Of a stretch of DNA of 64,000 nt, positions 2,776 through 61,064 are shown piece after piece. The notes beneath the pieces were generated by a model. The model saw only the letters and a program-made list of their open reading frames with translations. It made no database searches and was not told where the DNA came from. This stretch comes from Terrabacter aerolatus (lineage in GTDB: Bacteria > Actinomycetota > Actinomycetes > Actinomycetales > Dermatophilaceae). Each line of letters starts with the position of its first letter. Position 1 is the stretch's first letter. The position numbers were made by a program, and so were the translations under genes. The DNA lies in contig NZ_BJYX01000001.1 in NCBI RefSeq assembly GCF_007991735.1, positions 372,001-436,000 on the forward strand. The letters are read 5' to 3'.

Positions 2776-3708
2776 TCAGGCCTTGGGCTCCACCCGGTCC
2801 CGCGGGCGGCGGCGCGTCAGCAGCACTCCCGCGATGCACAGGGCGCCACCGACGAACGTCAGCGCGGGCGGCACCTCCGAGAGGAGCGCCCAGGCGATGA
2901 GGGTCGCGATGAAGGGCACGAGGAACGTCGTCAGGGTGAGCTTGCCGGCGTCGGTGCGAGCCAGCACGTAGGCCGAGGTCGAGAAGGCGATGGCCGTCGG
3001 GAAGACGCCGAGGTAGGCGATCCACCACAGCGTGCTCGCGTCGCTGTCACGCACGACGGTGACGAGCTCGCCGGTCCACGGCAGGCAGACCACGGCGCCG
3101 ATGATGCAGGCGAGCCACGTCACCTCGGGGCCGGGCAGGCGCCCGAGGAGCGGCTTCTGTGCGAGGACGCCCACGGCATACGTGATCGCTGCGAGGACGG
3201 CGAGCCACACGCCCACCATGTCGCCCGAGCCCCCGGAGGAGAACCCGCGGGCGATGACGACGACACCGGCGAACCCGACGGCCATGCCGATGAGGAGCCA
3301 GCGGTTCATCCGCTCCCCGAGGAAGACGGTGGCGAGCAGGGCCACGATGATCGGCCCGATCTGCACGATGAGAGCCGACGTGCCGGCGTCGATGCGTCGC
3401 TCGGCCTCGTTGAGGGCGAGGTTGTAGACGCCGAACCAGCCGACACCGCAGAGCAGGAGCAACGGCCAGTCGCGCCTGGCCGGCCACGTGCGCGGGCGGC
3501 GGAAGACGAGCACGCCCAGAGCCACGGACGCGACGAGCAGACGACCGAGAGACAGGGCACCGGGCGGCACGTCGCGGCCGAGGTGGCGGATCGCGACGAA
3601 GGCGGACGCCCACAGCAGGAGGGTCACCGCCACGGCGGCGAGCACGAGCAGGTTGGCGCGCCGGGCGCCCGACGGGGTCTCGGAGGCAGTGCGGGAGTCG
3701 ACGGTCAC
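2776..3708 (-). CDS. EamA/DMT-family exporter
   Basis: 310 residues with ten hydrophobic helices in two five-helix halves, the layout of drug/metabolite transporters. The motif ALNEAERRIDAGTSALIVQIGP in half one and ATYAVGVLAQKPLL at the start of half two are typical EamA positions. Substrate cannot be told; relatives export amino acids or metabolites. Start is GTG 3708-3706 without a convincing ribosome site. It stands alone, divergent from the cysteine dioxygenase operon. One TAT-GCC tyrosine-alanine pair here is a copy of the GTATGCCG motif (3174-3181). Confidence 0.88.
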   Translation of the reverse strand: MTVDSRTASETPSGARRANLLVLAAVAVTLLLWASAFVAIRHLGRDVPPGALSLGRLLVASVALGVLVFRRPRTWPARRDWPLLLLCGVGWFGVYNLALNEAERRIDAGTSALIVQIGPIIVALLATVFLGERMNRWLLIGMAVGFAGVVVIARGFSSGGSGDMVGVWLAVLAAITYAVGVLAQKPLLGRLPGPEVTWLACIIGAVVCLPWTGELVTVVRDSDASTLWWIAYLGVFPTAIAFSTSAYVLARTDAGKLTLTTFLVPFIATLIAWALLSEVPPALTFVGGALCIAGVLLTRRRPRDRVEPKA

Positions 3709-3793
3709 CCACAGACCGTAGGGGGCGACACCGACAGCGCGCCGCCCGGTATCCGGTCAGATGCCCCCGAGATCCCGCCACGGCCGATCACGC

Positions 3794-3846
3794 TTGTGAC
3801 ACCCGACATGTATAAGTTAACGTTTGCATTATGGCAATGCATGGTT
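3794..3846. promoter_or_regulatory. AT-rich control region before the cysteine dioxygenase operon
   Basis: In a 249-base gap this is the only AT-rich stretch. It holds TATAAG (3811-3816), a plausible -10, and the inverted repeat TGCATT-N5-AATGCA close behind it, which could be an operator. No regulator can be named from the site. Confidence 0.4.
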
Positions 3847-3957
3847 ATGTCCGGGTTGACGGAAGGTGTCAGCCGCTCGGGACGGACGCAGCGCACTGAG
3901 CGCGGCCCCTCCCGAGCGCCCCGCCCACCCCGCACACCGACCTCGAAAGGCACGACC

Positions 3958-4455
3958 ATGTCCCGCGGCGCCCAGCGCACCTCCGTCGACCTCGCCGACA
4001 CCGCCCGACGCCTGTCCCGCCAGCGCACCCTCTGGCAGGGCCTCGTCGACTTCGACCCCATCACCCGCTACTACGCACGCCTTCTCGCCGACCACGACCA
4101 CGAGGCGTGGCTGCTCACCTGGCTGCCCGGCCAAGGCACCCCCTGGCACGACCACGGCGGCAGCGCCGGCTCGTTCGTCGTGCTCCAGGGCGCCCTCACC
4201 GAGGAGGTGGCCGGATACCGCACCGCCGTCGACCTCGACAGCGTGCGGCGCGTCACCGGTCCGGGCGTCCTGCTCACGCCGGGCGACCAGCGCACCTTCG
4301 GCAGCCGGCACCTGCACCGGGTGACGAACGCGGGGCCGGACCCCGCCGTCAGCCTGCACGTCTACGCCCCCAGACTGACCTCCATGACGAACTACCGCGC
4401 TGTCGAAGGCCTGCTCGAGGTCGAGGAGCAGGCCGAGGTCGGGGTCGACTGGTGA
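3958..4455 (+). CDS. cysteine dioxygenase-type cupin
   Basis: 165 residues. The iron-binding pattern is present: WHDHGGSAG gives H64 and H66, and HLHRVTN gives H120; H134 and Y136 occupy the later conserved positions. This matches bacterial cysteine dioxygenases, which oxidise L-cysteine to cysteine sulfinate in the cytoplasm; 3-mercaptopropionate dioxygenase is a possible alternative within the same family. Start ATG 3958 with a GAAAGG-type site. The stop overlaps the GTG of the rhodanese by four bases, so the two are translated together, consistent with handling sulfur released from cysteine. Confidence 0.88.
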   Translation: MSRGAQRTSVDLADTARRLSRQRTLWQGLVDFDPITRYYARLLADHDHEAWLLTWLPGQGTPWHDHGGSAGSFVVLQGALTEEVAGYRTAVDLDSVRRVTGPGVLLTPGDQRTFGSRHLHRVTNAGPDPAVSLHVYAPRLTSMTNYRAVEGLLEVEEQAEVGVDW

Positions 4456-4907
4456 CGACACCCACCGGCCGCCCGCGCACCATCGACGAGGTGCTCGCCG
4501 ACGCCCGCAGCCGACTGCGTCGCCTCACCCCGGCAGAGGCCGAGCGGGTCTGCGCGGACGGCGCGTTCGTCGTCGACATCCGTCCCGCGGCCCAGCGTGC
4601 TGCCGAGGGCGAGCTGTCGTTCGCGACGCCGATCGAGCGCAACGTGCTCGAGTGGCGCCTCGACCCAGCCAGCGACGCTTCCCTGCCGATCGCGAGCCAC
4701 GACCTCCAAGTGGTGGTCCTCTGCCAGGAGGGCTACACCTCGAGTCTCGCGGCGGCAGCCTTGCAGGAGCTGGGGATCCACCGCGCCACCGACGTCATCG
4801 GGGGGTATGCCGCGTGGCGCACCCTCAGGGGCGACGCACCGTCGCGCGCGGCGGGCGCGGCGGGCGCGGAAGGCGCGGAACCACCGCCGCCGCCGACGAC
4901 GACCTGA
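4452..4907 (+). CDS. rhodanese-like sulfurtransferase
   Basis: 151 residues with a single rhodanese domain. The catalytic loop CQEGYTS places the persulfide-forming cysteine at residue 91, and GGYAAWRTL closes the domain. A Pro/Ala-rich tail ends PPPPPTTT. It starts at GTG 4452 inside the stop of the dioxygenase gene (GTGA overlap), so it is the second gene of a two-gene sulfur operon. Its last 83 bases overlap, in opposite direction, the 3' end of the LysG-type regulator gene. Confidence 0.87.
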   Translation: MTTPTGRPRTIDEVLADARSRLRRLTPAEAERVCADGAFVVDIRPAAQRAAEGELSFATPIERNVLEWRLDPASDASLPIASHDLQVVVLCQEGYTSSLAAAALQELGIHRATDVIGGYAAWRTLRGDAPSRAAGAAGAEGAEPPPPPTTT

Positions 4908-6468: not shown

Positions 6469-6630
6469 GTGAGCACAGGGGACGCCGCCGACATCGCTGA
6501 CGACAAGCGCATGAGGCTTCGGTATGCCGGCCGCTGCCGTGAGTGCGGCGCCGACCTCCCAGCCGGGACCCAAGTCGTCGACGTGGCTACCGTCCGCGCC
6601 CGGATCGCTCGGGCCTTCCCGCCCGCCTGA
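6469..6630 (+). CDS. small zinc-ribbon-like protein (53 aa)
   Basis: GTG 6469 opens a 53-codon frame. RYAGRCRECGADLPAGTQVV has one CxxC pair and the RYAGxCxxCGxxLPxG pattern found as a half zinc ribbon in many actinobacterial proteins; with only two cysteines it may bind metal as a dimer or not at all. TACCCT (6456-6461) is seven bases before GTG, a leaderless layout that decides the start. Function unknown. A hairpin 14 bases after the stop probably ends the transcript. Confidence 0.6.
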   Translation: MSTGDAADIADDKRMRLRYAGRCRECGADLPAGTQVVDVATVRARIARAFPPA

Positions 6631-6643: not shown

Positions 6644-6740
6644 GGCTACCTCAGGGCGAGGGGGACGGCATACGCCATCCGATCTGAGGTAGCCGGGACG
6701 CCGGGATAGGGAGGTCGCCCGATGTGGGGCCCTACCTCAG
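6644..6740. promoter_or_regulatory. three-arm CTACCTCAG element, terminator or attenuator
   Basis: GGCTACCTCAG (6644-6654) is the exact inverse of CTGAGGTAGCC (6684-6694); a third copy, CTACCTCAG, is at 6732-6740. Arm 2 can pair with arm 1 or with arm 3, so two mutually exclusive hairpins are possible. The loop of the first holds a near-palindrome around the GTATGCCG motif (6666-6673). The element lies between the zinc-ribbon gene and the 52-aa ORF/LuxR pair. It may be a terminator, an attenuator or an operator array. Confidence 0.55.
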
Positions 6741-6946: not shown

Positions 6947-9900
6947 CGGTGACCACGGGGTCCGTGTCCCCCGCTGCCCCGCCGCTGTCCGCGGAGTACG
7001 CGATGATGCCCCGTATGCCGCTGCGCACGGGCCCACTCATCGGCCGGGACACCGACCTGTCCCGTCTCGCCGACGCCATCGGGCTGCGCCCCTCACCGGG
7101 CGCGCAGCCCGGTGGCGTCGTCGTGCTGTCGGGTGACGCCGGGATCGGCAAGTCACGTCTCGTCCGGCAGCTCGTCGACGACGCCACCGCTGCGGGGTGG
7201 TTCACCGCGCTCGGCCACTGCGTCGGGCAGGCCGGCGCCAGTCTCGCCTACCTCCCCTTCGTCGAGCTCGTCGCCACGGTCGACGCCGGCCACCCCGACG
7301 TCGTCGAGCGCGTGCTCGACACGCACCCCAGCCTCGGACACCTCCTGCCCGGACGCGCCGCCGCTCACGACGGCACGGCCGTCGAACGGGCCGGGAGCCC
7401 CACCGACCCCGGCCAGGTCGCCGAGGCCGTCCACGCGCTGCTGTCCGCGCTGGGCGACGCGCAGCCCTCCCTCGTCGTCGTCGAGGACGTCCACTGGGCC
7501 GACCACTCCTCGCGCGACCTCATCACCCTGCTGCTGACGCGCGGCTTCACCAGGGCCGTCGGCCTCGTCGTGACGTACCGCTCCGACGACCTCCATCGCC
7601 GCCACCCCCTCCACGACACCCTGGCCGTGTGGGCGCGCATCGCGGGGCTCGAGCACGTCGATCTCGCCCCGCTCACCGATGACGCCGTCCGTGAGCTCGT
7701 CTCCGGCGTTGAGGGGGCGCCCACCGACGCCGGGACCAACGCCGAGATCGCCCGTCGGGCCGAGGGCAACCCGTTCTTCGCCGAGGAGCTCGTCGCGAGC
7801 GCCGCGGCCGGCCAGTCCCTCAGCGGTGGACTGAGCCGCGTGCTGCGCGCCCGGGTCGAGCAGCTCGACGACACGGCGCAGCGCGTGCTGCGGGCGATCG
7901 CGCTCAAGGGCGGCCAGTTCATCGGTCACGAGCTCCTCTCCCGCGTCGTCGCTCTCCCCGACGAGACGCTCGAGGCGGCGCTGGCGGCCGCCGTCGAGCA
8001 CCATGTGCTCGAGGCCCGCTGGCCGCCGGCCTACACCTTTCGCCACGCCCTGCTCGGCGAGACCGTCGCCGACGGCCTGCTGCCGGGCGAGCGGCTGCGG
8101 CTGCACCGGGCGTATGCCGCCGCGCTGGCCGAGCGCCCCGAGCTGGCTCCGGCGTCCGAGCTCGCCCGCCACGCCGCCGCCGTGGGCGACCTGCCGACCG
8201 CGGTGCGGGCCAGCCGCGCGGCGGCCGAGTCGGCCATGGCCGTGGGCGGCCCGCAGGAGGCGCTGCTGCACCTCGAGCGAGCCCTGTCGTGGCTCGACGA
8301 GGACGACCCCGAGCGCGACGAGGTGACCCTCCGGGCCTCGCGCGCCGCGATGGTCGCCGGTGAGCCGATCCGGGCCGTCGACCTGCTGCGCGACCGACTC
8401 GACCACCCCGGCAGCGCGCAGGAGCCGGGCACGCGGGCCGACCTGCTCGCGACGCTCGTCATCCGCTCGCGCGTGCTCGACCTTCCCGTGGACTCGGTCG
8501 CGCTGACCGACGAGGCGCTCTCGCTCATCGGCGAGGAGGCCGACGAGCGGCGCGTCCGCGTGCTCGTCGCGCGGGTGCAGGCCCTCGTCGACACGGGGTC
8601 GTTCGTCGAGGCGGCCGTCGTCGGCAACGAGGTGTCGCTGCTCGCCGAGCGCCTCGGGATGGGCGTCGCGCTGGCCGAGGTGCGCACGATCCTGGCGCGG
8701 GTGCTCGAGGCCCAGGAGAACCTCGAGTCGGTCGAGGCCCACCTGCGGTCGGTCGTCGCCGACATCCCGGCCGAGGACCCGCTCCTGCTCCGCGCCGTGC
8801 ACCAGCTCGCCTCGGTCGCGCACCGCCGTGGTGACCTGCCCGGCTCGCTCGCCCTCTACGACCGCGGCGCCGAGGTGGCCCGGCGGATGCACCGCGAGTG
8901 GGCGCCCTGGGGGCAGGAGTGCCGACTCCTCGGCGGCCTGACGGCCTACGAGCTCGGCGACTGGGACGGCGCGGTCCGTCGCCTCGACCTGGCCGGTCGG
9001 CCCTCTCCGCAGCCGGGACGGGCGATCTTCACGGCCGCGGCCCTGTCGGTGCACGCCGGTCGCGGGGAGCGGGTCGACCCCGACCTCGTCGCGGGGCTGC
9101 GCGAGTGGTGGCACGTCGACGGACTCTGCGTCGTGCTGACGGTCATGCCGGCGGTCGACGTGCTCGGGCAGTCCGGTGACCTCGCCGGGGTGCTCGAGGT
9201 GGCCGAGGCCGCCGTGCGGGTGCTCGACGCGGCCTGGGGCGACTACCACGCCGTCGCTCGGCTCGGCGCGCTCGTCGCGGGACAGGCTGCGGCGCTCGTG
9301 CCGCACGCCGACGCCGACCTGCGGGCCCGGGCGGTGGCCCTCGTCGACGAGCTCACCGACCGCGCCCGTCGCATCGGCGAGCCCCGCCCCGCGCTCGAGA
9401 GGCCGAGTCGGCCGACCTTCGAGCGCGCGGCCGCCGAACCGCTCGAGGACACGAGCCGCGAGACCTGGGCCTGGACGGCGCGGCTCGAGGCCGAGGCGCT
9501 GCGCCTGCAGCGGGTCGCCGGCGCCGACGAACCGCCACCCGTGGACGAGCTCGTCGCGGCCTGGCGCGAGAGCGTGGCGGCCTTCGAGCGCTACGGCCAC
9601 GTCTTCGAGACCGCGCGGTCGCAGGCCCGTCTGGCCGCGGCGCTACGGGCGGGCGGCGACGCCGTGGCCTCGCGCGAGGTCGCCGAGCAGGCCCGGGCGG
9701 TCGCCGTGCGCCTCGGGGCCGAACCGCTGCTCGCCGAGCTCGGCGAGGCCCGCCCGGTCCCGTCCGGCACACGCCCGACCGGCAGCCGCCCGTCCGGCGC
9801 GGACCACGGCGGCACTCCCGAGCTGACGCCGCGCGAGCTCGAGGTGCTCGCGCTGCTCGCCGAGGGCCTGACCAACGGCCAGATCGGCAAGCAGCTCTAC

Positions 9901-13210: not shown

Positions 13211-13253
13211 ACGCAGGTATGCCGCCGGGCCCGGCCCGGCGGCATACCTGCGT
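13211..13253. terminator. bidirectional hairpin with GTATGCCG arms
   Basis: Perfect inverted repeat: 21-base arms 13211-13231 and 13233-13253 around one base. Each arm contains one GTATGCCG copy (13217-13224, 13240-13247). It lies 20 bases after the DUF2853 stop and 21 bases after the CsbD stop on the other strand, so it can end both convergent transcripts. There is no U-tract, which is common in high-GC actinobacteria. Confidence 0.85.
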
Positions 13254-13501: not shown

Positions 13502-14071
13502 TCAGGCGACCCGGCGGGGTGCCGGGGCGCGGCGTCCGACGACGACGCGGACCCGGAGGCGCACGCTGTCGTCGGTGGCTGTGGCGAGCTCGCGGGCGAC
13601 GTCGGCGACGGCCCGCTCGATGCTCGTGACGTCGGTCCGTGAGGACGTCGTGGCCCTGAGCTCGACGACCGGCTGCCCGCCGGCGTATGCCGTGCTCGAC
13701 CGCACGCTCGTCACGTCCGGCCGGGCGGCGAGCGAGCGGGCTGCGGCGTCGGCCACGGCCGAGACGTCGTAGCCGAGCCGACCGTCGGTGGAGCTGCCCG
13801 CCAGGCCCAGCCGGGTCGGCCGCGACCGGGTCAGGTGGGAGAGCAGCCACCAGAGCGCGAGGCCGAGCAGGAGCAGTCCGGCGAGCGCGAGCGCTGCCGT
13901 CCACCAGCCCTGGCGGGGTGCGTCCGCGACCGCCGGGGCCAGGACGAGCCGGCCGGGGGTGCCGGACACCCAGCGCAGCTGCCAGAGCGCGGCGCCGGCT
14001 CCGACGGCGACGAGGACGAGCCCCGCGAGGAGGACGAGGACGCGGTCGACGGCGAGGGTGCGGCGGGTCAT
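13502..14071 (-). CDS. alkaline-shock membrane anchor, AmaP-like
   Basis: 189 residues: helix at about 10-30 (VLVLLAGLVLVAVGAGAALW), second helix near 58-78, then a soluble alpha/beta domain (SAVADAAARSLAARPDVTSV ... ADVARELATATDD) resembling the Asp23-type fold. The two-helix plus Asp23-like layout is that of AmaP, which anchors Asp23 to the membrane in Staphylococcus; identity here is inference from layout and neighbours. ATG 14071 overlaps the stop of the preceding gene (ATGA). Confidence 0.72.
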   Translation of the reverse strand: MTRRTLAVDRVLVLLAGLVLVAVGAGAALWQLRWVSGTPGRLVLAPAVADAPRQGWWTAALALAGLLLLGLALWWLLSHLTRSRPTRLGLAGSSTDGRLGYDVSAVADAAARSLAARPDVTSVRSSTAYAGGQPVVELRATTSSRTDVTSIERAVADVARELATATDDSVRLRVRVVVGRRAPAPRRVA

Positions 14072-17475: not shown

Positions 17476-18435
17476 TCACCCGGGCCAGGCGTCGAGCCAG
17501 GTCGAGCGGGAACTGACGTAGGGCGCGACGAGCGCCACGAGCCCCGGATCGGACTGCCCGGCAAGGACGTTCGAGGCGATGCGGCGCGCCGCACCGGCGA
17601 GGAAGTCGGCCAGCTGCACGCGAGCGTCGTCCTGCGAGTCGACGAACCGGATCCCCTCGAGCCACTCCGCGGACCCGTCGGCGCTGGCCCCCACGGCGGT
17701 GCGGATGGCGGCGTCGGTCAGGGCGGCCTGCACGTCGTGGACCACCCAGAGCGGACGACCTGTGGCACCCCAGTGGTGGAGCACCTCGGCGAGTGCCGGA
17801 ACGATCGGGTCCAGGGCGCCCCGGCCACGCGCCACGAGGGCGAGCAGCCCCTCCGGATCGCGGGGCACCGCGGACACGAGGTCCGGCACCAGGCCCGGAT
17901 CGAGGTGCGCCACCTGGTCGAGCCCCCGGCGCAGCGATCCCGCGGCCGTCACGGCGTCGTCGAGGGAGCGGGCCCGCACCACGTCGTTGAAGTCCGCGAG
18001 CACCGCCTCCCACCCGGCCCGACCGAGGCGTCGCGACGCCGTCCGGTGCACCGACGCCGAGCGGCCGGCCACGTCGTGGGCCGACGTCTCGCCGTCCCCG
18101 AGCAGCGCGACGAGACGCCCGGTGAGGTGCAGTGCCTTGTCGGTGAGGTGCACGTGGGCATGGCCCAGGAGCGGCCCGTCCTCACCGAGGAGCCACTCGA
18201 GCAGCCGCCGGTTCTGCGGACGCAGGACGACGCTGGCCTTGACCTCGGTCGCCGGTGAGCGCGCCTCGACGCGCACCCGCTCGATCGTCGCCAGCGCCGC
18301 GGCCGTCGTGACGTCGACGCTCGCGTGGGCGAACGTGTCAGTGCTCCCGTGGACGAGCTTCTCGCCCTCCGAGCCCGACTCGTCGCACGCCACCTCGAGG
18401 AGGACGGCGGAGCGCGCGGGCGCGGCGGACGGCAT
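17476..18435 (-). CDS. DUF3800 domain protein
   Basis: 319 residues. ACDESGSEGE near the N-terminus supplies D18/E19 and FVDSQDDARVQLADFLAGAA near the C-terminus is the second conserved block; together they mark DUF3800, an RNase-H-like fold of unknown activity often found in defence or mobile contexts, though neighbours here give no such sign. The ATG (18435-18433) lies inside a GTATGCCG motif copy. Confidence 0.75.
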   Translation of the reverse strand: MPSAAPARSAVLLEVACDESGSEGEKLVHGSTDTFAHASVDVTTAAALATIERVRVEARSPATEVKASVVLRPQNRRLLEWLLGEDGPLLGHAHVHLTDKALHLTGRLVALLGDGETSAHDVAGRSASVHRTASRRLGRAGWEAVLADFNDVVRARSLDDAVTAAGSLRRGLDQVAHLDPGLVPDLVSAVPRDPEGLLALVARGRGALDPIVPALAEVLHHWGATGRPLWVVHDVQAALTDAAIRTAVGASADGSAEWLEGIRFVDSQDDARVQLADFLAGAARRIASNVLAGQSDPGLVALVAPYVSSRSTWLDAWPG

Positions 18436-18497
18436 ACCTCATCCTCTGCGCGCGGCGCCGCGACGCCAACCCGGTTCGGCCGCCGAGGGCACGATTC

Positions 18498-44820: not shown

Positions 44821-45819
44821 TCACCGCGGCGACACGGCATACGCGAGGAAGGCGGTGCCGGCGACCCACACGCCGAGGCCGGCGAGGTTGACCCGGGGGT
44901 GGAGCGTCAGCGCGGCGAGGAACTCGCGGAGGAAGGCGCTCGGCAGGAAGTGCCAGGCCGTCGGGGCACCCGTGACGTCGGCGTCGAGCTGCAGGCGCCG
45001 CGTCAGCAGCGCCGCCCGGCCCACGTGGTAGCCGCTCGTCACGACCCGGAGGTGCCCGGCCCCGTCGAGTCCCCGGGCGCGCAGGATCTCGCGCGAGAGC
45101 AGGAGGTTCTCCTCCGTGGTGGTCGAGCGGTCCTCTGTCGCAAGCACGTCCGGGGGGACGCCGTGGGCGACGAGGTATGCCGTCATGGCCACTCCCTCGG
45201 GCATCGGCTCGTCGTCGCCCTGGCCGCCGCTCGGGACGACGATCGGGTCGTGACCGAGCGCCTGCTCGTCGCGCCACGCGTCGGCGGCCGCGTCGAGACG
45301 GTTGGCCAGCAGGGTCGGGACGGTGCCGTTGACGAGTCCTGAGCCCAGGACGACGATCGCGGCCGGCGCCACGCGGGCCCGCCGGCGCAGGTAGGCGAGG
45401 CAGAAGAGCGCGTACGAGACGAGCACGAGGCCCGGGTAGCCGGGCAGCAGGAGAACGACGACGGCGACCACCGCCGACCGGCTCGTCCCGGCCGGGAGAA
45501 CACCGACGGCCAGGGCACTCGCGGCGAGGATGGCGAGGCCCAGGACGAGGGCGACTGCGTTGGTGCGGCTGCGACCCGCGGGACCGAGCAGCCGCAGGCC
45601 GTTGCCGACGAAGAGCAGGCCCAGCACGGCTGCGCCGACGAGCGGCAGCAGGAGCAGGGACCTGGCGCCGGCGGACGGTGCGGCGGTTGCCGTCGTCGCG
45701 GCCCACAGGGCGCCGGTGAGCAGGACGCCGGTCAGCCATCGCCGGGGCGCGGCGCGCGCCGTGAGCACGAAGAGGACGAGCAGCGCCGCCGCGAGGACGA
45801 GGGCGACGAGCGATGGCAT
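44821..45819 (-). CDS. YdcF/SanA-like (DUF218) membrane protein
   Basis: 332 residues. Several N-terminal helices (about 1-150), then the DUF218 domain AIVVLGSGLVNGTVPTLLAN ... VPSGGQGDDEPMPEGVAMTA ... ATEDRSTTTEENLLLSREIL, and a final helix. DUF218 members affect the envelope or peptidoglycan precursor balance (ElyC, SanA) in E. coli; here only the family is clear. ATG 45819 with GGGAGG upstream. Confidence 0.85.
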   Translation of the reverse strand: MPSLVALVLAAALLVLFVLTARAAPRRWLTGVLLTGALWAATTATAAPSAGARSLLLLPLVGAAVLGLLFVGNGLRLLGPAGRSRTNAVALVLGLAILAASALAVGVLPAGTSRSAVVAVVVLLLPGYPGLVLVSYALFCLAYLRRRARVAPAAIVVLGSGLVNGTVPTLLANRLDAAADAWRDEQALGHDPIVVPSGGQGDDEPMPEGVAMTAYLVAHGVPPDVLATEDRSTTTEENLLLSREILRARGLDGAGHLRVVTSGYHVGRAALLTRRLQLDADVTGAPTAWHFLPSAFLREFLAALTLHPRVNLAGLGVWVAGTAFLAYAVSPR

Positions 45820-49542: not shown

Positions 49543-50166
49543 GTGACGAAGGCGGAACAGGACGTCGGTCGCGCCACACCGCGGGCACGGCAGCGAGCCG
49601 CGACCGAGGCGGAGATCCTCGCCGCGGCGCTCGCCCAGATGGGCCGCGAGGGGGTCGCCGCGTTGAACCTCAGCCAGGTCGCACGGGAGGTCGGACTGCG
49701 CCAACCCTCGCTGTTCCGCTACTTCCCGTCCCGGCTTGCCCTGTACGACGCGCTGTTCGCCCACGGGATGCGTGAGCACCGAGCGGCAGTGGCAGCGGCA
49801 CTGGCAGAGGGCGCCGGCGGCTGGGCGACGGTCCGTGGCGTCGCGGAGGCAACCGCCCGGTTCTCCGCTGCGAACCCGGTGCTCGGGCAACTGCTGTTCA
49901 CCCGGCCCGTGCCGGGGTTCGAGCCTTCCGCAGAGGCCTATGCCCCGAGTGTCGACGTGAGGCAGATGGTCTCGGACTCCGTCGCGGATGCCGTGGCGGC
50001 CGGCGAGCTGAGGGCGGAGGCTGCCACGCCGGAGGGCGTGCAGCTGCTCGTGGCGTTGACGGCGGGGGTCATCAGTCTCCACGCCGCCAACGACCCCGGC
50101 ACCGAGGAGCCCAGCCCGCTGCTGGAGTCCGCACTCGAGATGTATGCCGCGTACTACCGGCCCTGA
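49543..50166 (+). CDS. TetR-family regulator
   Basis: 207 residues. NLSQVAREVGLRQPSLFRYF is the recognition helix-turn-helix and RLALYDALFAHGMREHRA the following helix; the C-terminal domain (PEGVQLLVALTAGVISLHAA) is the ligand-binding part. Most likely represses the divergent SRPBCC-SnoaL-ABM genes. GTG 49543 is the start; the operator leaves no room for a ribosome site, so it may be leaderless. Confidence 0.85.
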   Translation: MTKAEQDVGRATPRARQRAATEAEILAAALAQMGREGVAALNLSQVAREVGLRQPSLFRYFPSRLALYDALFAHGMREHRAAVAAALAEGAGGWATVRGVAEATARFSAANPVLGQLLFTRPVPGFEPSAEAYAPSVDVRQMVSDSVADAVAAGELRAEAATPEGVQLLVALTAGVISLHAANDPGTEEPSPLLESALEMYAAYYRP

Positions 50167-50926: not shown

Positions 50927-52195
50927 TCAGGACTGGGTGCGCAGGTAGCGCCCGAAGTGGGGCACGGTGAAGGCGATGAGGCCGCGCTCACCGGAGTAGA
51001 TGAGGCCCTTCTTGATGAGGGCGTCGCGGGCGGGCGACAGCGACTGCGGCTTGCGCCCGAGCACGTCCGCCACGGCCGAGGTCGGCACGGCCTCCCGCTC
51101 GGTCACCCCATCGCGCACGTATGCCGCGACGTCGCCCTCAGCGTCGTCCAGGCCTCCCGAGTCCGCCTGTGCCACAGACGGGTTCACGAGTGCTGCGTCT
51201 GCCATCGCCCGGAGGTACTCGCGCTCCGCCGGGGTCGCACGCTCGAACCGCGATCCGAAGAAGCCCACGGCGAGCTCGGACTCTGCCTCGGGCACCGCCA
51301 CGCGGATGTCCTCCGCCGTCACCGGTGAGCTCGGCGCGACGTCCCAGACGACCTTGCCGTACGCCTGGATGAAGTAGGGATAGCCGGCCGTCACGGCATA
51401 CATCTCGTCGAGGGCCTCGGGGGTGAACTCGCACGCCTCCTCGGCGGCCGGGCCGACGAGCGCCCGGTCGGCGGCCTCGCGCGGCAACCGATCGATGCGG
51501 GAATAGCGAAAGAGCCTCTCGGAGTAGGACTTCGAGGCCGACAGCACGGCCGGCAGGTGCGGCAGCCCGGCCCCGACGACGATGACGGGCAGGCCCGACT
51601 GCGAGATCTCGTGGCAGGCCGCGCACAGGGCGGAGACGTCCTCGGGGTCGAGGTCCTGCATCTCGTCGATGAAGAAGGCGACGCCCTTGCCGACGTCGGC
51701 CGCCAGGCCCCCGATGTCGGTGAGCAGTTCGACGAGGTCGATCTCGACGTCGCCCGAGTCGGCGCGGCCCGTCACTGCGGGCACGTCGATGCCGGGGTGC
51801 CACCTCTCACGCAGCTTGGCCCCGGTCGGGGCGTCGCGCAGCGCGAACGCCTTGATGCTCCCCAGCACCTGGTCGACGTCGTCGCCACGCGGGTGGCCGA
51901 GCTCGCGCACCGCCTGGTGGGCGGCGGCGGCGAGCGGCCGGCGCAGGCGCTGGTCGGGGCGCGCCTCGAACTTGCCTGTGCCCCAGTCGGCCCGGACGGC
52001 TGACGAGCGAAGAGCGTTGAGCAGCACCGTCTTTCCGACGCCGCGCAGGCCGGTCAGCACGATCGAGCGTTCGGCGCGTCCGCGGGCGATCCGCTCGAGG
52101 ACGACGTCGAAGGTGCGCAGCTGCTCGTCGCGCCCGGCGAGCTCGGGCGGGCGCTGGCCCGCGCCCGGGGCGTACGGGTTCGTGATCGGGTCCAC
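50927..52195 (-). CDS. AAA ATPase with winged-helix C-terminus (Orc1/Cdc6-like)
   Basis: 422 residues. GLRGVGKT (49-56) is Walker A, FFIDEMQDLD Walker B, PREAADRALVGPAAEEACEF a lid-like region, and the C-terminus PTSAVADVLGRKPQSLSPAR DALIKKGLIYSGERG a winged helix. Similar stand-alone ATPases are common in actinobacteria; role unknown. GTG 52195. A 10-bp-arm inverted repeat lies about 100 bases upstream. Confidence 0.83.
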   Translation of the reverse strand: MDPITNPYAPGAGQRPPELAGRDEQLRTFDVVLERIARGRAERSIVLTGLRGVGKTVLLNALRSSAVRADWGTGKFEARPDQRLRRPLAAAAHQAVRELGHPRGDDVDQVLGSIKAFALRDAPTGAKLRERWHPGIDVPAVTGRADSGDVEIDLVELLTDIGGLAADVGKGVAFFIDEMQDLDPEDVSALCAACHEISQSGLPVIVVGAGLPHLPAVLSASKSYSERLFRYSRIDRLPREAADRALVGPAAEEACEFTPEALDEMYAVTAGYPYFIQAYGKVVWDVAPSSPVTAEDIRVAVPEAESELAVGFFGSRFERATPAEREYLRAMADAALVNPSVAQADSGGLDDAEGDVAAYVRDGVTEREAVPTSAVADVLGRKPQSLSPARDALIKKGLIYSGERGLIAFTVPHFGRYLRTQS

Positions 52196-52417: not shown

Positions 52418-53266
52418 TCAAGCGACCGACAAGATTTCAAAAATCTCGTTCGGGTGCGCGATGGCGTCCTGCTCCGCCACGAGGAGCATCTCGTCGGAGC
52501 CGCTCGCGTGCGTGCGCTCGAGGACGGCATACATCGTGGCCGCCGTACGTCGCAGGGCCACCTCGGCCCCGTCGGTCAGGTAGTGCGCGAGGAAGACCGC
52601 GGCGGTGACGTCGCCGCCCCCGCGGACGGTCATCGGCAGCATGGGGGTCGTGACGACCCACGCGTCGTCGGCGGTGATGCAGGCCATCTGGATCGAGTCG
52701 GCCGGGGTGTCGGACGTCAGTGCCGACGTCACGAGCACGACCTTCGGCCCGCGCGCGACGAGCTCGCGCGCAGCGGCCACGAGGTCGGCCTGCGTGGCGA
52801 CCTCGCGCCCGACGAGGTACTCGAGCTCGAACTGGTTCGGCGTCACGATGTCGGCCCGCGGCACGACGTGGTCACGGAGGTACTCCGGGATGCCCTCGCG
52901 CACGAAGAAGCCGCGGCCGACGTCGCCCATCACCGGGTCGCAGCAGTAGACCGCGGCGGGGTTGGCCGCCTTGACGCGCGCGACCGCGTCGAGCACGACC
53001 TCTCCGACGGCCTCGGCGCCCTGGTAGCCCGAGAGCACCGCATCGATCGTCGGGAAGGCGCCGCGCTCCTCGACACCGTCGATGACGGCAGCCACGTCGG
53101 CGGGCGCGATGAGAGGGCCGCGGGTCGAGCCGTAGCCCGTGTGGTTGGAGAACGTCACCGTGAGGACGGGATAGACCTCGTGCCCGAGCCGCTGGAGCGG
53201 GAAGACCGCGGCCGAGTTGCCGGCGTGACCGTAGGCGACGTGGGACTGGATCGACAGGATCTTCAC
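52418..53266 (-). CDS. pdxY: pyridoxal kinase PdxY
   Basis: 282 residues. SIQSHVAYGHAGNSAAVFPL is the PdxY signature start, CCDPVMGDVGRGFF the nucleotide/substrate strand, TPNQFELEYLVG the middle motif and VRGGGDVTAAVFLAHYL the anion-hole GGGD loop with catalytic Asp. Phosphorylates pyridoxal for B6 salvage. GTG 53266. Convergence is absent downstream; the U-tract terminator follows. Divergent from GntR-DUF1648, 53 bases apart. Confidence 0.93.
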   Translation of the reverse strand: MKILSIQSHVAYGHAGNSAAVFPLQRLGHEVYPVLTVTFSNHTGYGSTRGPLIAPADVAAVIDGVEERGAFPTIDAVLSGYQGAEAVGEVVLDAVARVKAANPAAVYCCDPVMGDVGRGFFVREGIPEYLRDHVVPRADIVTPNQFELEYLVGREVATQADLVAAARELVARGPKVVLVTSALTSDTPADSIQMACITADDAWVVTTPMLPMTVRGGGDVTAAVFLAHYLTDGAEVALRRTAATMYAVLERTHASGSDEMLLVAEQDAIAHPNEIFEILSVA

Positions 53267-53676: not shown

Positions 53677-54629
53677 CCACCGACCGTCGCCCCACCCGCG
53701 CCCTCGTCGCGAGCGCCGTCGTCCCCCTCGGCGTCGCGGTCACCGGCACGGCGACGGCGTATGCCGTCCGCGACCGTCTGCCCGACCGGCTGGCCGTGCA
53801 CTGGGGCGTGGACGGGGCGCCCGACCGCTACAGCTCCTTCACCGGTGCGGTCGTGACGGCAGCCGCCCTCACGGTCGCCGTCCCGCTCGCGATCATCGGG
53901 CTCGGGGCACTCATGCACCGCTCGGCCCGCGGGCCGGTCGCCGCCATCGCCGGAGGTCTCTCCGTCGCTCTGGGCGGGCTGCTCTTCGGCGGTCTGCTCG
54001 CGCAGCGTCCGGGCCAGCCGCCTCAGGCCTTCCCGCCGCAGTGGGCGGTGCCGTCCCTCGTGCTGGCCGTGCTCGTCGGCGTCGGTCTGTGGCGCTGGGG
54101 CCGGATCACGCCCCCGGAGGTCACGGGCCCGCGCGGGCCGCTCCCCGCCGACGCCGCACGCCTCGACGTCGCACCGACGACGCGGCTCGCGTGGACCGGG
54201 CGGGCCAGCCTGCCGACCGGGCCCGCACTCGCGCTCGCCGTCGTCGTCGCGCTGCCGCTCGTGTGGGTGGCCCTCGCCGGCCTGCCGTGGGTGTGGCTGC
54301 TGGCGCTCGCCCTCGGCGCCCTGCTCGCCGTCACGCTGTCGGCCCGGGTGGTCGTCGACAGCGCCGGGCTGCGCGTCTCGAGCGCCGGGTTCACGTGGTC
54401 CCGGGTCCCGCTCGAGCGCGTGACGTCGGCGACGACGTGCACGGTGTCGCCCCTGCGCGAGTTCGGCGGCTGGGGCTGGCGCCTCGCGATGGACGGGCGT
54501 CGCGGCTACATCACCCGCGCGGGCGAGGCGCTCGTCGTGCACCGGGTCGGCGAGCCGGACGTCGTCGTGACCGTCGACGACGCCGACGAGGCCGCCGCGG
54601 TCCTCAACACGCTCGCCGCCCGCACCTAG
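53673..54629 (+). CDS. DUF1648-domain membrane protein
   Basis: 318 residues with about six helices. LPDRLAVHWGVDGAPDRYSS near residue 35-55 is the DUF1648 hallmark (W-x-x-x-G-x-P-D). The C-terminal part VVVDSAGLRVSSAGFTWSRV resembles a PH-like bacterial domain. Paired with YtrA-type regulators in many Gram-positives; function unknown. ATG 53673 overlaps the regulator's stop. The 30-bp tandem repeat follows its stop. Confidence 0.88.
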   Translation: MTTDRRPTRALVASAVVPLGVAVTGTATAYAVRDRLPDRLAVHWGVDGAPDRYSSFTGAVVTAAALTVAVPLAIIGLGALMHRSARGPVAAIAGGLSVALGGLLFGGLLAQRPGQPPQAFPPQWAVPSLVLAVLVGVGLWRWGRITPPEVTGPRGPLPADAARLDVAPTTRLAWTGRASLPTGPALALAVVVALPLVWVALAGLPWVWLLALALGALLAVTLSARVVVDSAGLRVSSAGFTWSRVPLERVTSATTCTVSPLREFGGWGWRLAMDGRRGYITRAGEALVVHRVGEPDVVVTVDDADEAAAVLNTLAART

Positions 54630-55071: not shown

Positions 55072-55593
55072 GTGAACGACCGCGACAGGCACGACGACGC
55101 GCGCCAGCCGGACCCGACGGCCGACGAGTGGTCGGCCTGGCTGCCCCGCCTCGACCCGCCGACGACCCCGCTCCCGCAGCCCTCCGCGCCGCCCGACGCC
55201 GCAGTCCCGCCGGCCCCGTCGCCTGCGCCCGATGCCCCTCACGCTCCGCCGTCGCTGCCGCACCTGCCGCCTCCCCCTGCCACACCGACGAGCTGGTATG
55301 CCGGGTCGTCGCGGCCCGCGCCCATGCCGGCTCCCGCGGGCGCGCCGCTCTACAGCCCACCCCCGCCGAACCGGCTCGGGCTCGCGATCTTCTGCACCGT
55401 GTTCTGCTTCATGCCCTTCGGCATCGTCGCGCTCGTCAAGGCGAGCTCCGTCAACGCCAGATGGGCGCAGGGCCGGCTCGTCGAGGCGCGCCGGGCCTCG
55501 GAGTCGGTCCGGAGCTGGTGCCTCCTCGCCGCCCTCGTCTGGCCCGGGCTCGGCCTCCTGACGGCGTTCACCGCCGTCCTCGGCTTCCGCTGA
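55072..55593 (+). CDS. dispanin (CD225)-like membrane protein with Pro-rich N-terminus
   Basis: 173 residues. The first 95 are Pro/Ala/Ser-rich and probably disordered. Then LGLAIFCTVFCFMPFGIVAL starts the CD225/dispanin pair of helices, with VKASSVNARWAQGRLVEARR as the linking loop and WCLLAALVWPGLGLLTAFTA as the second helix. Function unknown. GTG 55072 with GGAGGG eight bases upstream. Confidence 0.85.
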   Translation: MNDRDRHDDARQPDPTADEWSAWLPRLDPPTTPLPQPSAPPDAAVPPAPSPAPDAPHAPPSLPHLPPPPATPTSWYAGSSRPAPMPAPAGAPLYSPPPPNRLGLAIFCTVFCFMPFGIVALVKASSVNARWAQGRLVEARRASESVRSWCLLAALVWPGLGLLTAFTAVLGFR

Positions 55594-55609: not shown

Positions 55610-56332
55610 TCAGGCGACGGGGATCGACGCCGGTCGGGTGCAGACGAGCTCGTCGCCCTGCGGAGCCGCCACGGGGGCCTGCACCACCCCACCCCCTGCC
55701 GACGCTGGACGCGCCTGGGCGACGCGGCCGTCGACCTGCACGCAGAGCTGCCACTGCTTCAGGCCGCGGTCCACCGCGCCCCGCGGCGCCTGGAACGAGT
55801 CGCCCGGGACGTCGAGCACGGGCGGCGACACGGCATACGCCCTCCCGGTGACGCTCGCCCCGGGAGCGATGACGTGGCCACCCATGACGGGCGCGGCGGC
55901 GAAGCGCACGTTCGGCGCCGTCGCGAAACCCTGCTTGCTCAGACGCAGCACCCCGGACTGCTCGTAGACCCACGCGTGCTGCTGGTCCACGCCCCGGGGC
56001 AGCGCGGCGCTCCCGAGGTCGTGGGGCACGAGGTCGTAGGCCAGGAGCGGGGTCGACCCCGTGTTGGTCACCGTGTAGTCGACGACGAGCCCCGGCCGGA
56101 CGGCCATGCCCGACCCGGTCGGGCCGTGGTGCGCGCCTCCTGCCGGAGCCATCGTCGCCTCGAGGCGCACGCCGCCGGACGTCACGGTCTGCACCGGGGC
56201 GACGGACCCGACGGCCGACGTGGGCGCCCCCGGGGAGGGCTCGGCCTGCCCGCAGGCGCTCGTGGCGAGCACCGCGCCGAGAGCGAGCGCGGCACCGGTC
56301 GAGGTCTTCAGGGTCGTCGTCAACGGCTTCAT
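55610..56332 (-). CDS. lipoprotein, DUF4232-like
   Basis: 240 residues. Signal sequence with lipobox LATSACG (Cys near 27); then a beta-rich body with VDYTVTNTGSTPLLAYDLVP and a Gly-rich middle. The exported body resembles DUF4232 lipoproteins of unknown role. ATG 56332 is preferred; GTG 56350 is an in-frame alternative with no better ribosome site. Divergent from the phosphoesterase gene. Confidence 0.75.
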   Translation of the reverse strand: MKPLTTTLKTSTGAALALGAVLATSACGQAEPSPGAPTSAVGSVAPVQTVTSGGVRLEATMAPAGGAHHGPTGSGMAVRPGLVVDYTVTNTGSTPLLAYDLVPHDLGSAALPRGVDQQHAWVYEQSGVLRLSKQGFATAPNVRFAAAPVMGGHVIAPGASVTGRAYAVSPPVLDVPGDSFQAPRGAVDRGLKQWQLCVQVDGRVAQARPASAGGGVVQAPVAAPQGDELVCTRPASIPVA

Positions 56333-58343: not shown

Positions 58344-59204
58344 CTACTTGAGCAGGCGGGACAGGCGGCGGTCCGCGAGCGGCTTGCCGCCGGTCTGGCA
58401 GGTCGCGCAGTACTGGAGCGAGGTGTCGGCGAACGACACCTCGCGCACGACGTCACCGCACACGGGGCACGCCTCGCCCGTGCGCGCGTGCACGCGCATG
58501 CCGGCCCGCTTGGCGTCCTTGAGCTCCTTGGCCGGCTTGCCCGACGCCGTCGTGACGGCGCTCGCGAGCGTGTCGCGCAGAGCGGCATACAACCGGTCGA
58601 CGACCTCGGGGGCGAGGGATCCGGCGATGGCGAAGGGACTGATCTTCGCGACGTGGAGGATCTCGTCGGAGTAGGCGTTGCCGACCCCGGCGATGAACTC
58701 CTGGTCGCGCAGCAGCCCCTTGATCTGGGTGCGGCGCCCGTCGAGCATCGACCGGAACGTCTCGAGGGAGAAGTCGTCGGCCATCGGGTCGGGTCCCAGC
58801 CGGGCGATCCCTGGCACCTCGGCCGGGTCCTTGACGATGTATGCCGCGAGCGACTTCTTCGTGCCCGCCTCGGTCAGGTCGAAGCCCGACCCGTCGGACA
58901 GGCGCACCCGCAGCGCGATCGGCGACTTGCCGGGGCGCACGACGGTCGCCGGCAGCTGGTCGGACCAGCGCAGCCAGCCGGCGCGGGCGAGGTGGAAGAC
59001 GAGGTGGGTGCCGTCGGCGTCGATGTCGAGGAACTTGCCGTGCCGGTGCACGCCGTCGACCGGGGCACCCTCGAGCGCCTGCGGCGGCGGGTTGAAGGTC
59101 TTGAGCACGCTGAACGACGCGAGCTCGACCCCCGTGATGGCAAGGCCGGCCGTTCGCTCGGCGAGGAAGTCGACGAGCGCCTGCACCTCCGGCAGCTCAG
59201 GCAT
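58344..59204 (-). CDS. Fpg/Nei-family DNA glycosylase
   Basis: 286 residues. MPELPEVQAL carries the catalytic Pro2 and Glu3, AGVGNAYSDEILHVAKISPF the helix-two-turn-helix, and CPVCGDV ... CATC the C-terminal zinc finger. Removes oxidised bases and cleaves the strand by beta/delta elimination. The Nei-like form is likelier than Fpg because HRHGKFLDIDADGTHLVFHL differs from canonical Fpg, but this is not settled. Confidence 0.9.
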   Translation of the reverse strand: MPELPEVQALVDFLAERTAGLAITGVELASFSVLKTFNPPPQALEGAPVDGVHRHGKFLDIDADGTHLVFHLARAGWLRWSDQLPATVVRPGKSPIALRVRLSDGSGFDLTEAGTKKSLAAYIVKDPAEVPGIARLGPDPMADDFSLETFRSMLDGRRTQIKGLLRDQEFIAGVGNAYSDEILHVAKISPFAIAGSLAPEVVDRLYAALRDTLASAVTTASGKPAKELKDAKRAGMRVHARTGEACPVCGDVVREVSFADTSLQYCATCQTGGKPLADRRLSRLLK

Positions 59205-59230
59205 GGCCCCAGTCTGTCATCCGGAGGGGA

Positions 59231-60328
59231 CTATCGGCCGGGACGCGAGGGCTGTTCGTCGGCGGCGAGCACCTCTCCCACCTTGCCCGCGCTCTCGAGG
59301 ACCCGCAGCATGGCGTGCCCGTCCGGCGCCGAGAAGGTCGGCACCGACCGGGCCGCCCAGGACCGGATCGGCGCCTCGATCTTCATCGGGTTGGACAGCA
59401 CCTGCTCGGTCGGCGACAGGTGGCGGATGCAGATGGCCTCGACGCGGTCGGGCCTCGCCTCGGCGAAGTCGGCGTAGATCTGCGGGTCGTGCTGGCCGTC
59501 GTCGCCGACGAGCAGCCACCGGATCTCGGGGAAGTCGCGGGCGAGCCGGTCGAGGCAGCTGCGCTTGTGCGCCTGCCCGCTGCGGAACCAGCCCGTGTTG
59601 GTCGGCCCCCAGTCGGTGAGCATGAGCGGCCCGAGGGGGAAACCGTTCTCGACGAGGAAGCGGTTGAGGGTGGCGGCGGTGTTCCAGGCTCCCGTCGAGA
59701 CGTAGACGATGGGGGCGCCGGGGTGCGCCGAGAGGATGCGGCGGTACATCGGGGCCATTCCCGAGACCGCGTGCCGGGCCTTGCCGCGGCGGACGAAGGT
59801 GTTGAAGGCCGCGATCATCGGGCGCGGCAGCATCGTGGTGATGACGGTGTCGTCGATGTCGCTGACGATGCCCTCGGTCACGCCGTCCGCGACGATGAAG
59901 ACGTCGGCCGCCACCGGGTCGGTGCCCTGCACCTCGACGACGACCTGCTGCCAGCCCGGCGCGAGACCGTGGTCGCGCGCGACGATGTCGACGTGGCCGC
60001 CGCGGTCGGAGCGGCCGTAGACCTCACGGTCGCCCGCCGTGACCTTGACCGGGACGCCGGTGGCCGGCGACGTGATGAAGGCGCGCCAGCCACGGTCGTA
60101 GCGGGCCGGGGTCAGGGCGCCGGTCGCGTCCTGACGGGCCTCGGGCCCCTCGGTGTGCTCCCGGCCCTTGCGGCCCAGCAGGATCCGCGCGTAGACGCGC
60201 ACGAACGACGACGAGCCGTAGCCGACGTGGGTGATGACGCGGTTGCCCCACCCGCGGCTGCGCAGCACGCGTTCGACCTGCTCGTGGACGGTGTCCTCGA
60301 CGATGGCGGCCGCGTGCGGTCGTGACAT
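59231..60328 (-). CDS. App1-family phosphatidate phosphatase-like (DUF2183)
   Basis: 365 residues. IVSDIDDTVITTMLPRPMIA gives the DxDxT nucleophile of the HAD superfamily; MAPMYRRILSAHPGAPIVYV, LMLTDWGPT and LLVGDDGQHDPQIYADFAEA are the remaining motifs. App1 dephosphorylates phosphatidate in yeast; bacterial homologues have unknown substrates. ATG 60328 follows TAGGTT by six bases on the minus strand, so it is a leaderless start. Confidence 0.9.
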   Translation of the reverse strand: MSRPHAAAIVEDTVHEQVERVLRSRGWGNRVITHVGYGSSSFVRVYARILLGRKGREHTEGPEARQDATGALTPARYDRGWRAFITSPATGVPVKVTAGDREVYGRSDRGGHVDIVARDHGLAPGWQQVVVEVQGTDPVAADVFIVADGVTEGIVSDIDDTVITTMLPRPMIAAFNTFVRRGKARHAVSGMAPMYRRILSAHPGAPIVYVSTGAWNTAATLNRFLVENGFPLGPLMLTDWGPTNTGWFRSGQAHKRSCLDRLARDFPEIRWLLVGDDGQHDPQIYADFAEARPDRVEAICIRHLSPTEQVLSNPMKIEAPIRSWAARSVPTFSAPDGHAMLRVLESAGKVGEVLAADEQPSRPGR

Positions 60329-60431
60329 GGCCACAACCTACCCGTGAGGGCTGTCACCCGCGCGAACGCCGGGTTGCCAACAGGTGGACCCCGACGGGCG
60401 CTGGTGCGACGCGGCAGGTTTGATGGTCCGC

Positions 60432-61064
60432 GTGCACCCCATAGCCGAAGTCCTCAGCAAGGCCGCCGGTGGCGACTTCCCCACCGTCGACGGTGGCTGG
60501 CAGCGCGTCGAGCCGTGGCGCCCCGGCGTCGAGGGCGTCGTCGCGTTCACCGGGCACGCCTACCTCGCCGTCGACCACGACGTCTCCGACGGGACGCTCG
60601 TCTCGCTGAGCCCCGACGGCTACGGCGGCGCCAGCAACCCGCGGCTCGTCTCGCGCCTCGCCGGCACCGGCTGGATCGACGCGCTCGACATCATCCTCGT
60701 GGCGCGCGGGACCGGCGGCGAGCCCACCCTCGTGCCGCGAAGCGACCTGCGCAACCACCCGCGCGCCGAGCACGCGACGTCCGTGCGGAGCGACGTCACG
60801 ACGTTCGGGTATGCCGTGCCGGACGACCACACGCTCGTCACCCTCTCGACGGGGCTCGGCGGGCTGCCCGAGGTCGGCCTCGAGACCGACCCGTCCAAGG
60901 ACCACGTCGGCGCCGACGTCGTCCGTGACGCCCTGACGCTCATCCCGGAGGGGGAGGTCGCCGTGGCCGCCTGCGCCCCCGGCAACGCCCGGGCGCTGCG
61001 CGCCTTCCTGTCCGCCGGCTTCGAGCCGGTCGCGTCGGTCCAGCTCTGGCGACCGGAGCGCTGA
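60432..61064 (+). CDS. GNAT-like acetyltransferase-fold protein
   Basis: 210 residues. The C-terminal part PEGEVAVAACAPGNARALRA followed by FLSAGFEPVASVQLWR is the acetyl-CoA-binding end of a GNAT fold; the N-terminal half is variable (FTGHAYLAVDHDVSDGTLVS). GTG 60432 follows TTTGAT by seven bases and is favoured; ATG 60423 is an alternative. Substrate unknown. It is divergent from the App1 gene. Confidence 0.72.
   Translation: MHPIAEVLSKAAGGDFPTVDGGWQRVEPWRPGVEGVVAFTGHAYLAVDHDVSDGTLVSLSPDGYGGASNPRLVSRLAGTGWIDALDIILVARGTGGEPTLVPRSDLRNHPRAEHATSVRSDVTTFGYAVPDDHTLVTLSTGLGGLPEVGLETDPSKDHVGADVVRDALTLIPEGEVAVAACAPGNARALRAFLSAGFEPVASVQLWRPER

Follow-up and report, generated by a model that had tools for sequence, protein, structure and literature searches.

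A genome-wide, maintained octamer with lineage dialects in Terrabacter aerolatus and other Dermatophilaceae: a candidate DNA-uptake word

The window analyzed here is a 64,000-nucleotide stretch (C1:372001-436000) of the Terrabacter aerolatus genome (G000; GTDB family Dermatophilaceae; 4.42 Mb, 62 contigs), and the element in question is the octamer GTATGCCG, which lies both in genes and between them. A preliminary description of this DNA had reported 32 exact copies, 19 on the plus and 13 on the minus strand, spanning positions 3174-60816, and had likened them to DNA-uptake sequences; a recount agreed with these numbers. Dinucleotide shuffles gave an expectation of 0.77 copies in the window (largest of 100, 3), and an order-3 Markov model gave 1.55. 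The two terminator-type hairpins that had been claimed, at 13211-13253 and 40063-40099, both exist and fold strongly. The first sits between a plus-strand and a minus-strand gene that converge on it, and the second lies directly past the end of the gene at 34506-40043. Apart from hairpin partners, the flanks of the copies were unrelated, and copies occurred throughout the genome, which rules out a local duplicated or repeat block. It had also been estimated that about 20 of 24 TAT codons are followed by GCC; the pattern held but the counts differed, with 19 of 25 TAT codons followed by GCC and 16 of the 25 within GTATGCCG. TAC was used 244 times in the window (our own gene calls).

Genome-wide counts of the octamer and of the reversed word were compared. 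GTATGCCG was found 2163 times in G000 (1072 + 1091) and the reversed word 195 times (90 + 105), so the octamer stands at about 11 times its control and not near the level set by composition. We infer that the reversed control is itself raised where GCC precedes the word, and the true excess is therefore larger. The detailed anatomy was taken from 444 kb of contig C1 with 250 exact copies; coding figures were based on our own gene caller (89% coding), and the pair list and strand bins are independent of gene calls. The core was exact, as the octamer was enriched 21-fold and no one-mismatch variant more than 2.7-fold, with flank preferences for T at +9 (52%) and C at -1 (57%). The density was 1.42/kb in intergenic DNA and 0.456/kb in genes.

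A codon-pair or base-composition effect of a GC-rich genome could be considered, given that 114 of the 250 copies represent the in-frame Tyr-Ala context G-TAT-GCC-G. However, TAT was used in 114 of 125 G-Tyr-GCC-G contexts and in only 71 of 2037 Tyr codons elsewhere. When synonymous codons were shuffled, with proteins and codon usage kept, genes contained 8.7 ± 3.0 copies (largest of 50, 15) versus the 180 observed. Moreover, other frames and noncoding DNA were also enriched, and the 22 genomes sampled from other families of the order held at most 167 copies each. The shuffles, the other frames and the noncoding enrichment refute this explanation, which we consider to have almost no chance of being correct. 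As a separate observation, GTACGCCG, the synonymous counterpart of the enriched word, was depleted in genes (6 vs 29 expected, first 200 kb of C1), and GTATG[A/G/T]CG was absent from genes over 200 kb of G000.

The spacing and orientation of copies were then measured. Over 360 kb, spacing was more even than random (coefficient of variation 0.787 vs 0.959 simulated, p 0.001). The mixed orientation noted in the window extended to contig C1, where neither strand was favoured (122:128 over the 444 kb) and 12 bins of 40 kb were near-even, the most skewed being 7:12 and 9:14 (origin and terminus unmapped). Among 13 neighbouring pairs less than 60 bp apart, 10 were convergent, 2 same-strand and 1 divergent, and 8 of the 10 convergent pairs were outside called genes. 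Together with the two folding pairs of the window, this bears out the suggested pairing into terminator-type hairpins. A recombination or segregation signal of the Chi or KOPS type would share the octamer length and the coding over-representation of Escherichia coli Chi. Copies of Chi and KOPS are oriented with respect to replication, whereas the strand bins on contig C1 are near-even, and inverted pairing would not be expected of a polar signal; a signal of this type is thus disfavoured and appears very improbable. Across 108 word-rich genomes the forward fraction was 0.45-0.53, but whole-genome counts are silent on replichore polarity because two replichores would cancel.

To assess conservation in position, the window and the ComEC-region DNA were aligned with eight same-genus genomes and one Terracoccus locus (possibly one of them), the aligned relatives being 86-88% identical. 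The octamer was kept in 61 of 69 comparisons (88%) at 18 sites, versus 66020 of 167243 (39%) for all octamers, although the comparisons are not independent of one another. Near-words were kept in 3 of 17 (GTACGCCG), 18 of 46 (GGATGCCG), 1 of 16 (GCATGCCG), 5 of 14 (GTGTGCCG) and 1 of 2 (GTAGGCCG) comparisons. TAT codons of the aligned window stayed TAT in 27 of 27 comparisons inside the word and in 8 of 20 outside. These results indicate that the octamer sites are maintained well above the general level. In the reverse direction, G000 has the octamer in 61 of 86 cases where a relative carries one, and site turnover was seen at the copy that starts at 45175 (Table 1).

Table 1. Octamer copies and hairpins of the window, with the number of aligned relatives that keep each site
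Feature	Position	Strand	Context and conservation
Hairpin, terminator-type, two inverted octamers	13211..13253		20-bp stem, -45.2 kcal/mol, z -8.5
Hairpin, terminator-type, two inverted octamers	40063..40099		-30.5 kcal/mol, z -5.5
GTATGCCG	3174..3181	-	in gene
GTATGCCG	4805..4812	+	in gene
GTATGCCG	6522..6529	+	intergenic
GTATGCCG	6666..6673	-	intergenic
GTATGCCG	7013..7020	+	in gene
GTATGCCG	8112..8119	+	in gene
GTATGCCG	13217..13224	+	left arm of hairpin 13211..13253
GTATGCCG	13240..13247	-	right arm of hairpin 13211..13253
GTATGCCG	13685..13692	+	in gene
GTATGCCG	18430..18437	-	overlaps end of called gene; counted intergenic
GTATGCCG	21371..21378	+	in gene; kept 1/1
GTATGCCG	24656..24663	-	intergenic; kept 4/5
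GTATGCCG	25733..25740	+	in gene; kept 6/6
GTATGCCG	32067..32074	-	intergenic; kept 4/4
GTATGCCG	36055..36062	-	in gene; kept 7/8
GTATGCCG	36164..36171	+	in gene; kept 8/8
GTATGCCG	40067..40074	+	left arm of hairpin 40063..40099; kept 1/1
GTATGCCG	40088..40095	-	right arm of hairpin 40063..40099; kept 1/1
GTATGCCG	43093..43100	+	in gene; kept 6/6
GTATGCCG	43368..43375	+	in gene; kept 6/6
GTATGCCG	44835..44842	-	in gene; kept 6/6
GTATGCCG	45175..45182	+	in gene; absent in 6/6, of which 4/6 have a copy at 45156
GTATGCCG	50142..50149	+	in gene
GTATGCCG	51119..51126	+	in gene
GTATGCCG	51394..51401	-	in gene
GTATGCCG	52525..52532	-	in gene
GTATGCCG	53759..53766	+	in gene
GTATGCCG	55296..55303	+	in gene
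GTATGCCG	55831..55838	-	in gene
GTATGCCG	58583..58590	-	in formamidopyrimidine-DNA-glycosylase-like gene
GTATGCCG	58839..58846	+	in same formamidopyrimidine-DNA-glycosylase-like gene as 58583..58590
GTATGCCG	60809..60816	+	in gene

Two other features of the window were recorded. The plus-strand gene at 34506-40043 encodes a single chain of 1845 aa with biotin carboxylase, biotin carrier, ACC central-like and carboxyltransferase domains. The product of 6943-10014 (plus strand) is a large regulator that matches a kinase/cyclase fusion family at its N-terminus and carries a LuxR-type helix-turn-helix at its C-terminus.

The distribution of the word was examined in relatives, where it proved abundant in many genomes of the family. 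Word-rich was defined as at least 0.1/kb, with a middle class of 0.045-0.1 (thresholds set by us). Among 58 genomes, all nine of the genus (G000 included) were rich; counts for the 22 from outside the family are given above. In 186 family genomes of 53 genera, 108 were rich, 11 intermediate and 67 below, so that all sampled members were rich in 25 genera, some in 6 and none in 22. The 108 rich genomes carried hundreds to 4724 copies each, with ratios to the reversed word of 2.5 to 70 and a top density of 1.36/kb. A survey of 80 named loci, each up to 20.8 kb, showed rich loci in Terrabacter, Terracoccus, Humibacillus xanthopallidus, Intrasporangium oryzae, Knoellia, and some Phycicoccus and Nostocoides. 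Fewer copies, or GTATGRCG, were found in Ornithinimicrobium, Flexivirga and Arsenicicoccus loci, and zero copies in the surveyed loci of Janibacter, Kytococcus, Dermacoccus, Intrasporangium flavum and Phycicoccus jejuensis.

Other lineages use related words, namely GTATGNCG, GGATGCCG and GTACGNCG. Against codon-preserving nulls, the strict word was enriched 11-15-fold in G000, G023 and G033, and the GGATGCCG dialect 5.7-fold in G034 and 7.4-fold in G082. In G011, G012 and G035, any base was tolerated at position 6 (4.6-20-fold each). A search of 29 genomes gave genome-wide GGATGCCG counts of 3949 in G034, 3816 in G024, 3838 in G071, 4480 in G082 and 2195 in G084, and of 383-1336 in the remaining 24. 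G084 carries two words, with 1217 copies of GTATGCCG beside those of GGATGCCG. In G023 the word is extended to CGTATGCCGCTG (loci L118-L121), which no other sampled genome does. G126 carried GTACGNCG in every one of the six frames and at 2.1/kb in noncoding DNA, and G031 carried it in five of six frames; in G031 the signal is clear in coding DNA and the noncoding value of 0.8/kb represents 5 copies in 6.4 kb; G032 and G027 showed a weaker GTACGNCG signal. In G009, GGATGCCG was enriched 3-fold within genes but not outside them. No dialect was evident in G016, G010, G017, G018, G022 (of which only half of the DNA was called genes) and G065. Two genera were of interest in their own right. Within genus g54, GTATGCCG counts were 361 in G082, 288 in G083 and 1189 in G085, next to that of G084 given above (GGATGCCG was counted in G082 and G084 only), and this genus perhaps shows a dialect shift caught midway. 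Within genus g26, 19 copies of GTATGCCG were found in G126, which uses GTACGNCG, versus 3681 in G127 and 1062 in G033.

The dialect labels were mapped on a ComEC tree that included 46 of the 54 rows prepared, as the anchor pattern had no match in the other 8; some of the labels were based on 20-kb counts. The labels need 14 changes on this tree, compared with 23.6 when shuffled, and none of 200 shuffles was as low. Clustering was clear for TAT (8 vs 14.9, 0/500 as low) and GGA (1 vs 3.0, 0/500), modest for TATN (4 vs 5.8, 12/500) and for rows labelled as having none (9 vs 11.5, 20/500), and weak for TACN (3 vs 3.9, 50/500). Taken together, these data establish GTATGCCG as a genome-wide, maintained octamer with lineage dialects.

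Related words were also found beyond the family. In noncoding DNA, GTACGNCG occurred 18 times in Kribbella, 17 times in Nocardioides and 10 times in Frankia-like metagenome-assembled genomes (MAGs), at 1.5-1.8/kb, with 2, 1 and 1 copies of the reversed word, and it was enriched in both orientations of their coding DNA. Four control sets were used (Janibacter with Dermacoccus and Kytococcus; Jiangella and kin; G016; G009), in which noncoding DNA held 7, 6, 5 and 7 copies (0.25-0.56/kb; reversed 0, 1, 2 and 2) and coding counts were close to expectation. The noncoding counts of the controls exceed those of the reversed word, indicating that the reversed word understates the background. By the reading frames and noncoding DNA, a codon effect fails to account for GTACGNCG in Kribbella, Nocardioides, the Frankia-like MAGs and G126. 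Across 296 genomes of the class, GTACGNCG counts reached 12,732 (G357, 5.3 Mb; reversed 788), as raw numbers without codon correction. At least 34 class genomes exceeded both five times the reversed control and 0.9/kb, also by raw counts (36 were chosen by eye, 2 of them just under these limits). Separately, in a 20-kb locus of a Propionibacterium MAG (L220), GGACGCCG occurred 42 times in coding DNA versus 15 by codon shuffling, and is possibly another dialect.

Word density was measured in mobile DNA, using stretches picked for transposase (PF00665) matches, a proxy only for recent arrival. In 80 kb of G087:C2, 24 copies were found versus 47.8 expected from the genome mean, 18 of them in the last 25 kb; 60 kb of G178:C8 held 6 versus 55.6 expected, and 20 kb of G000:C7 held 3 versus 9.8. 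Within about 5 kb around nine transposase matches, 0-2 copies were present at seven. Among 30 word-rich genomes, one has the PF04860 phage portal, the single prophage marker that was searched.

A site for a cytoplasmic chromosome protein, such as a nucleoid organiser, an anchoring or silencing factor or a global regulator, with each site under selection, would account for several of these results. The site conservation, the even spacing, the low density in some mobile stretches and the dialects all fit a co-evolving DNA-binding protein. On the other hand, non-palindromic exact copies by the hundreds and thousands, with the variants so little enriched in G000, are unusual for a nucleoid protein, and neither both orientations in gene bodies nor convergent hairpin pairs would be expected. 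We regard such a protein as an unlikely explanation.

As the preliminary description had proposed looking for competence genes, these were searched. ComEC, ComEA and a Tad/Flp locus are present in G000: the ComEA has SLBB-HhH domains, the ComEC has a metallo-beta-lactamase domain, and the Tad locus encodes T2SSE, two T2SSF, TadE and TadG-like proteins and a 71-aa pilin-like protein without a Pfam match. Of 58 genomes, 57 have ComEC and 56 have TadE; ComEC was also found in all 16 additional genomes searched, one match being partial. A ComEA-like frame, by our own pattern, adjoins ComEC in 50 of 52 loci, some of which represent the same genome twice. The ComEC truncation in G150 is only apparent, as the sequence stops at the contig end. 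A type IV pilin receptor is unsupported in this genus: none of the 9 genus genomes searched has PF07963, and only 2 of the 36 family genomes do, which makes a ComP-type receptor unlikely. A secreted-looking lamin-tail-domain protein is encoded directly after the Tad pilus genes of G000 (L280:8960-9415), and G001 and G008 have matches close to their own Tad genes. It was dropped as a receptor candidate because tblastn placed it only in the Terrabacter-genus loci L280, L281 and L299; it was not found in 18 other Tad-region stretches from 17 genomes (about 3 kb each; gene order may differ).

The octamer was compared with known iterated words. In Neisseriaceae, the DNA uptake sequence (DUS) is present in 943 to 5918 copies per genome and in eight dialects; the S. 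muelleri genome combines two dialects at nearly equal counts, and an obvious DUS is missing from five genomes of the family (Frye et al., PMC3630211). Uptake words in terminators have been quantified (PMC1852404), and their density is low in many genomic islands (PMC7371117). The Terrabacter word resembles DUS in its near-exact copies by hundreds to thousands, its clade dialects, the family members without the word, the two dialects in one genome (in unequal numbers in G084) and the terminator pairing; island sparseness is the least secure point of likeness. It differs in that DUS has 10-12 bases with a conserved CTG and is found in Gram-negatives with type IV pili and ComP, while the Terrabacter word has 8 bases without CTG, in a genus without the PF07963 signature. 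The AT-DUS dialect, ATGCCGTCTGAA, shares ATGCCG with GTATGCCG, a resemblance noticed post hoc. The CGTATGCCGCTG of G023 shares both ATGCCG and CTG with this neisserial word, probably by chance. The uptake signal sequence (USS) of Pasteurellaceae has a 9-bp AAGTGCGGT core with AT-rich flanks and occurs in about 1000 or more copies, in genes and terminators, family-wide with subtypes. Short exact core, high copy number, placement in genes and terminators and spread through a family in several variants are shared with GTATGCCG; the sequence is unrelated and the hosts are Gram-negative. Genes of the kinds seen in G000 (comEA, comEC and tad) also occur in the actinobacterium Micrococcus luteus, for which we know of no uptake word. 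Transformation of M. luteus requires tad genes and comEC, and the main text of that report contains neither "uptake sequence" nor "sequence-specific" (PMC4322843).

Cyanobacterial HIP1 is an abundant, lineage-limited palindromic octamer whose function is unresolved, and GTATGCCG resembles it as a genome-wide iterated octamer of lineage-limited occurrence. A HIP1-like or methylation-linked iterated word, arising through a methyltransferase, a mismatch-repair bias or a replication process without uptake, might be proposed on this ground. However, GTATGCCG is non-palindromic, exact over 8 bases, and paired inverted in hairpins, and sister lineages carry related words in its place in comparable numbers; moreover, a repair bias leaves the intergenic and hairpin preference unexplained. 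An origin of this kind seems rather improbable.

With moderate confidence, and in line with the preliminary description, we propose that GTATGCCG is a DNA-uptake-type self-recognition sequence, as judged from its enrichment, its lack of strand polarity (on one contig), the hairpin pairs, the even spacing, the conservation and the clustered dialects. A surface DNA receptor of the competence apparatus (Tad/Flp pilus, ComEA and ComEC, as in Micrococcus luteus) would prefer octamer-bearing fragments, which would be imported and then recombined into the chromosome. Word-bearing alleles would be imported more often and hence spread, so that copies would build up where the code allows, with Tyr-Ala written as G-TAT-GCC-G, and between genes, where some may serve as terminators. 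Altered receptor specificity would shift the word and produce dialects. More tentatively, and with less confidence than for uptake itself, GTATGCCG may be one dialect of a class-wide actinobacterial family of uptake words, GTAYGNCG (with GGATGCCG). Such a family would have an origin separate from the words in Neisseria and Haemophilus, and its receptor would belong to the Tad/Flp-ComEA pathway instead of being a type IV minor pilin.

Several results weigh against an uptake function. Neither the PF07963 search, with its near-absence of type IV pilins, nor the Tad-adjacent candidate yielded a receptor for the octamer. Word-free Janibacter, Kytococcus and Dermacoccus carry ComEC and ComEA, and the latter two also TadE, so presence of com or Tad genes is rejected as the switch; given Kytococcus and Dermacoccus, the switch must lie in specificity and not in possession of the pathway. 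G065, G126 and G150 lack the word though their genus-mates are rich, and G065 and G126 retain ComEC (the G150 match is partial, at the contig end). Normal word density was seen at two of the nine transposase matches, G087:C2:947794 and G000:C1:334751 (7 copies each; the latter lay in DNA retrieved for another purpose), so that word poverty near transposases is frequent but not general, and the mobile-DNA evidence is mixed. Furthermore, no octamer, uptake sequence or transformation was described for these taxa among the matches listed in open-licence PubMed Central. Our confidence in uptake was kept down by the mixed mobile-DNA evidence and because whole-genome strand counts do not test replichore polarity; what probability remains falls mostly to a chromosome protein or a HIP1-like process. 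As a side observation, the frame at G000:C1:334751-335005 is of transposase type (rve), and a convergent octamer pair follows directly after it.

To our knowledge, uptake words are known only from Neisseriaceae and Pasteurellaceae, and transformation is not known for many of the genera studied here. An uptake word in Actinobacteria would thus be new for the phylum. If the proposal is true, it would represent a third, independent case, in GC-rich Gram-positives without type IV pilins, indicating that the strategy evolves convergently, and the word would mark many genera as naturally competent, a prediction open to test. Tagging DNA with it could enable transformation of intractable soil and sludge actinobacteria, and it would offer a route to the first DNA receptor with sequence specificity that is not a type IV pilin. 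The dialect shifts inside genera g54 and g26 would allow the evolution of uptake specificity to be compared directly. If the class-wide family were also true, species-selective transformation would be expected in many soil genera, including Kribbella and Nocardioides.

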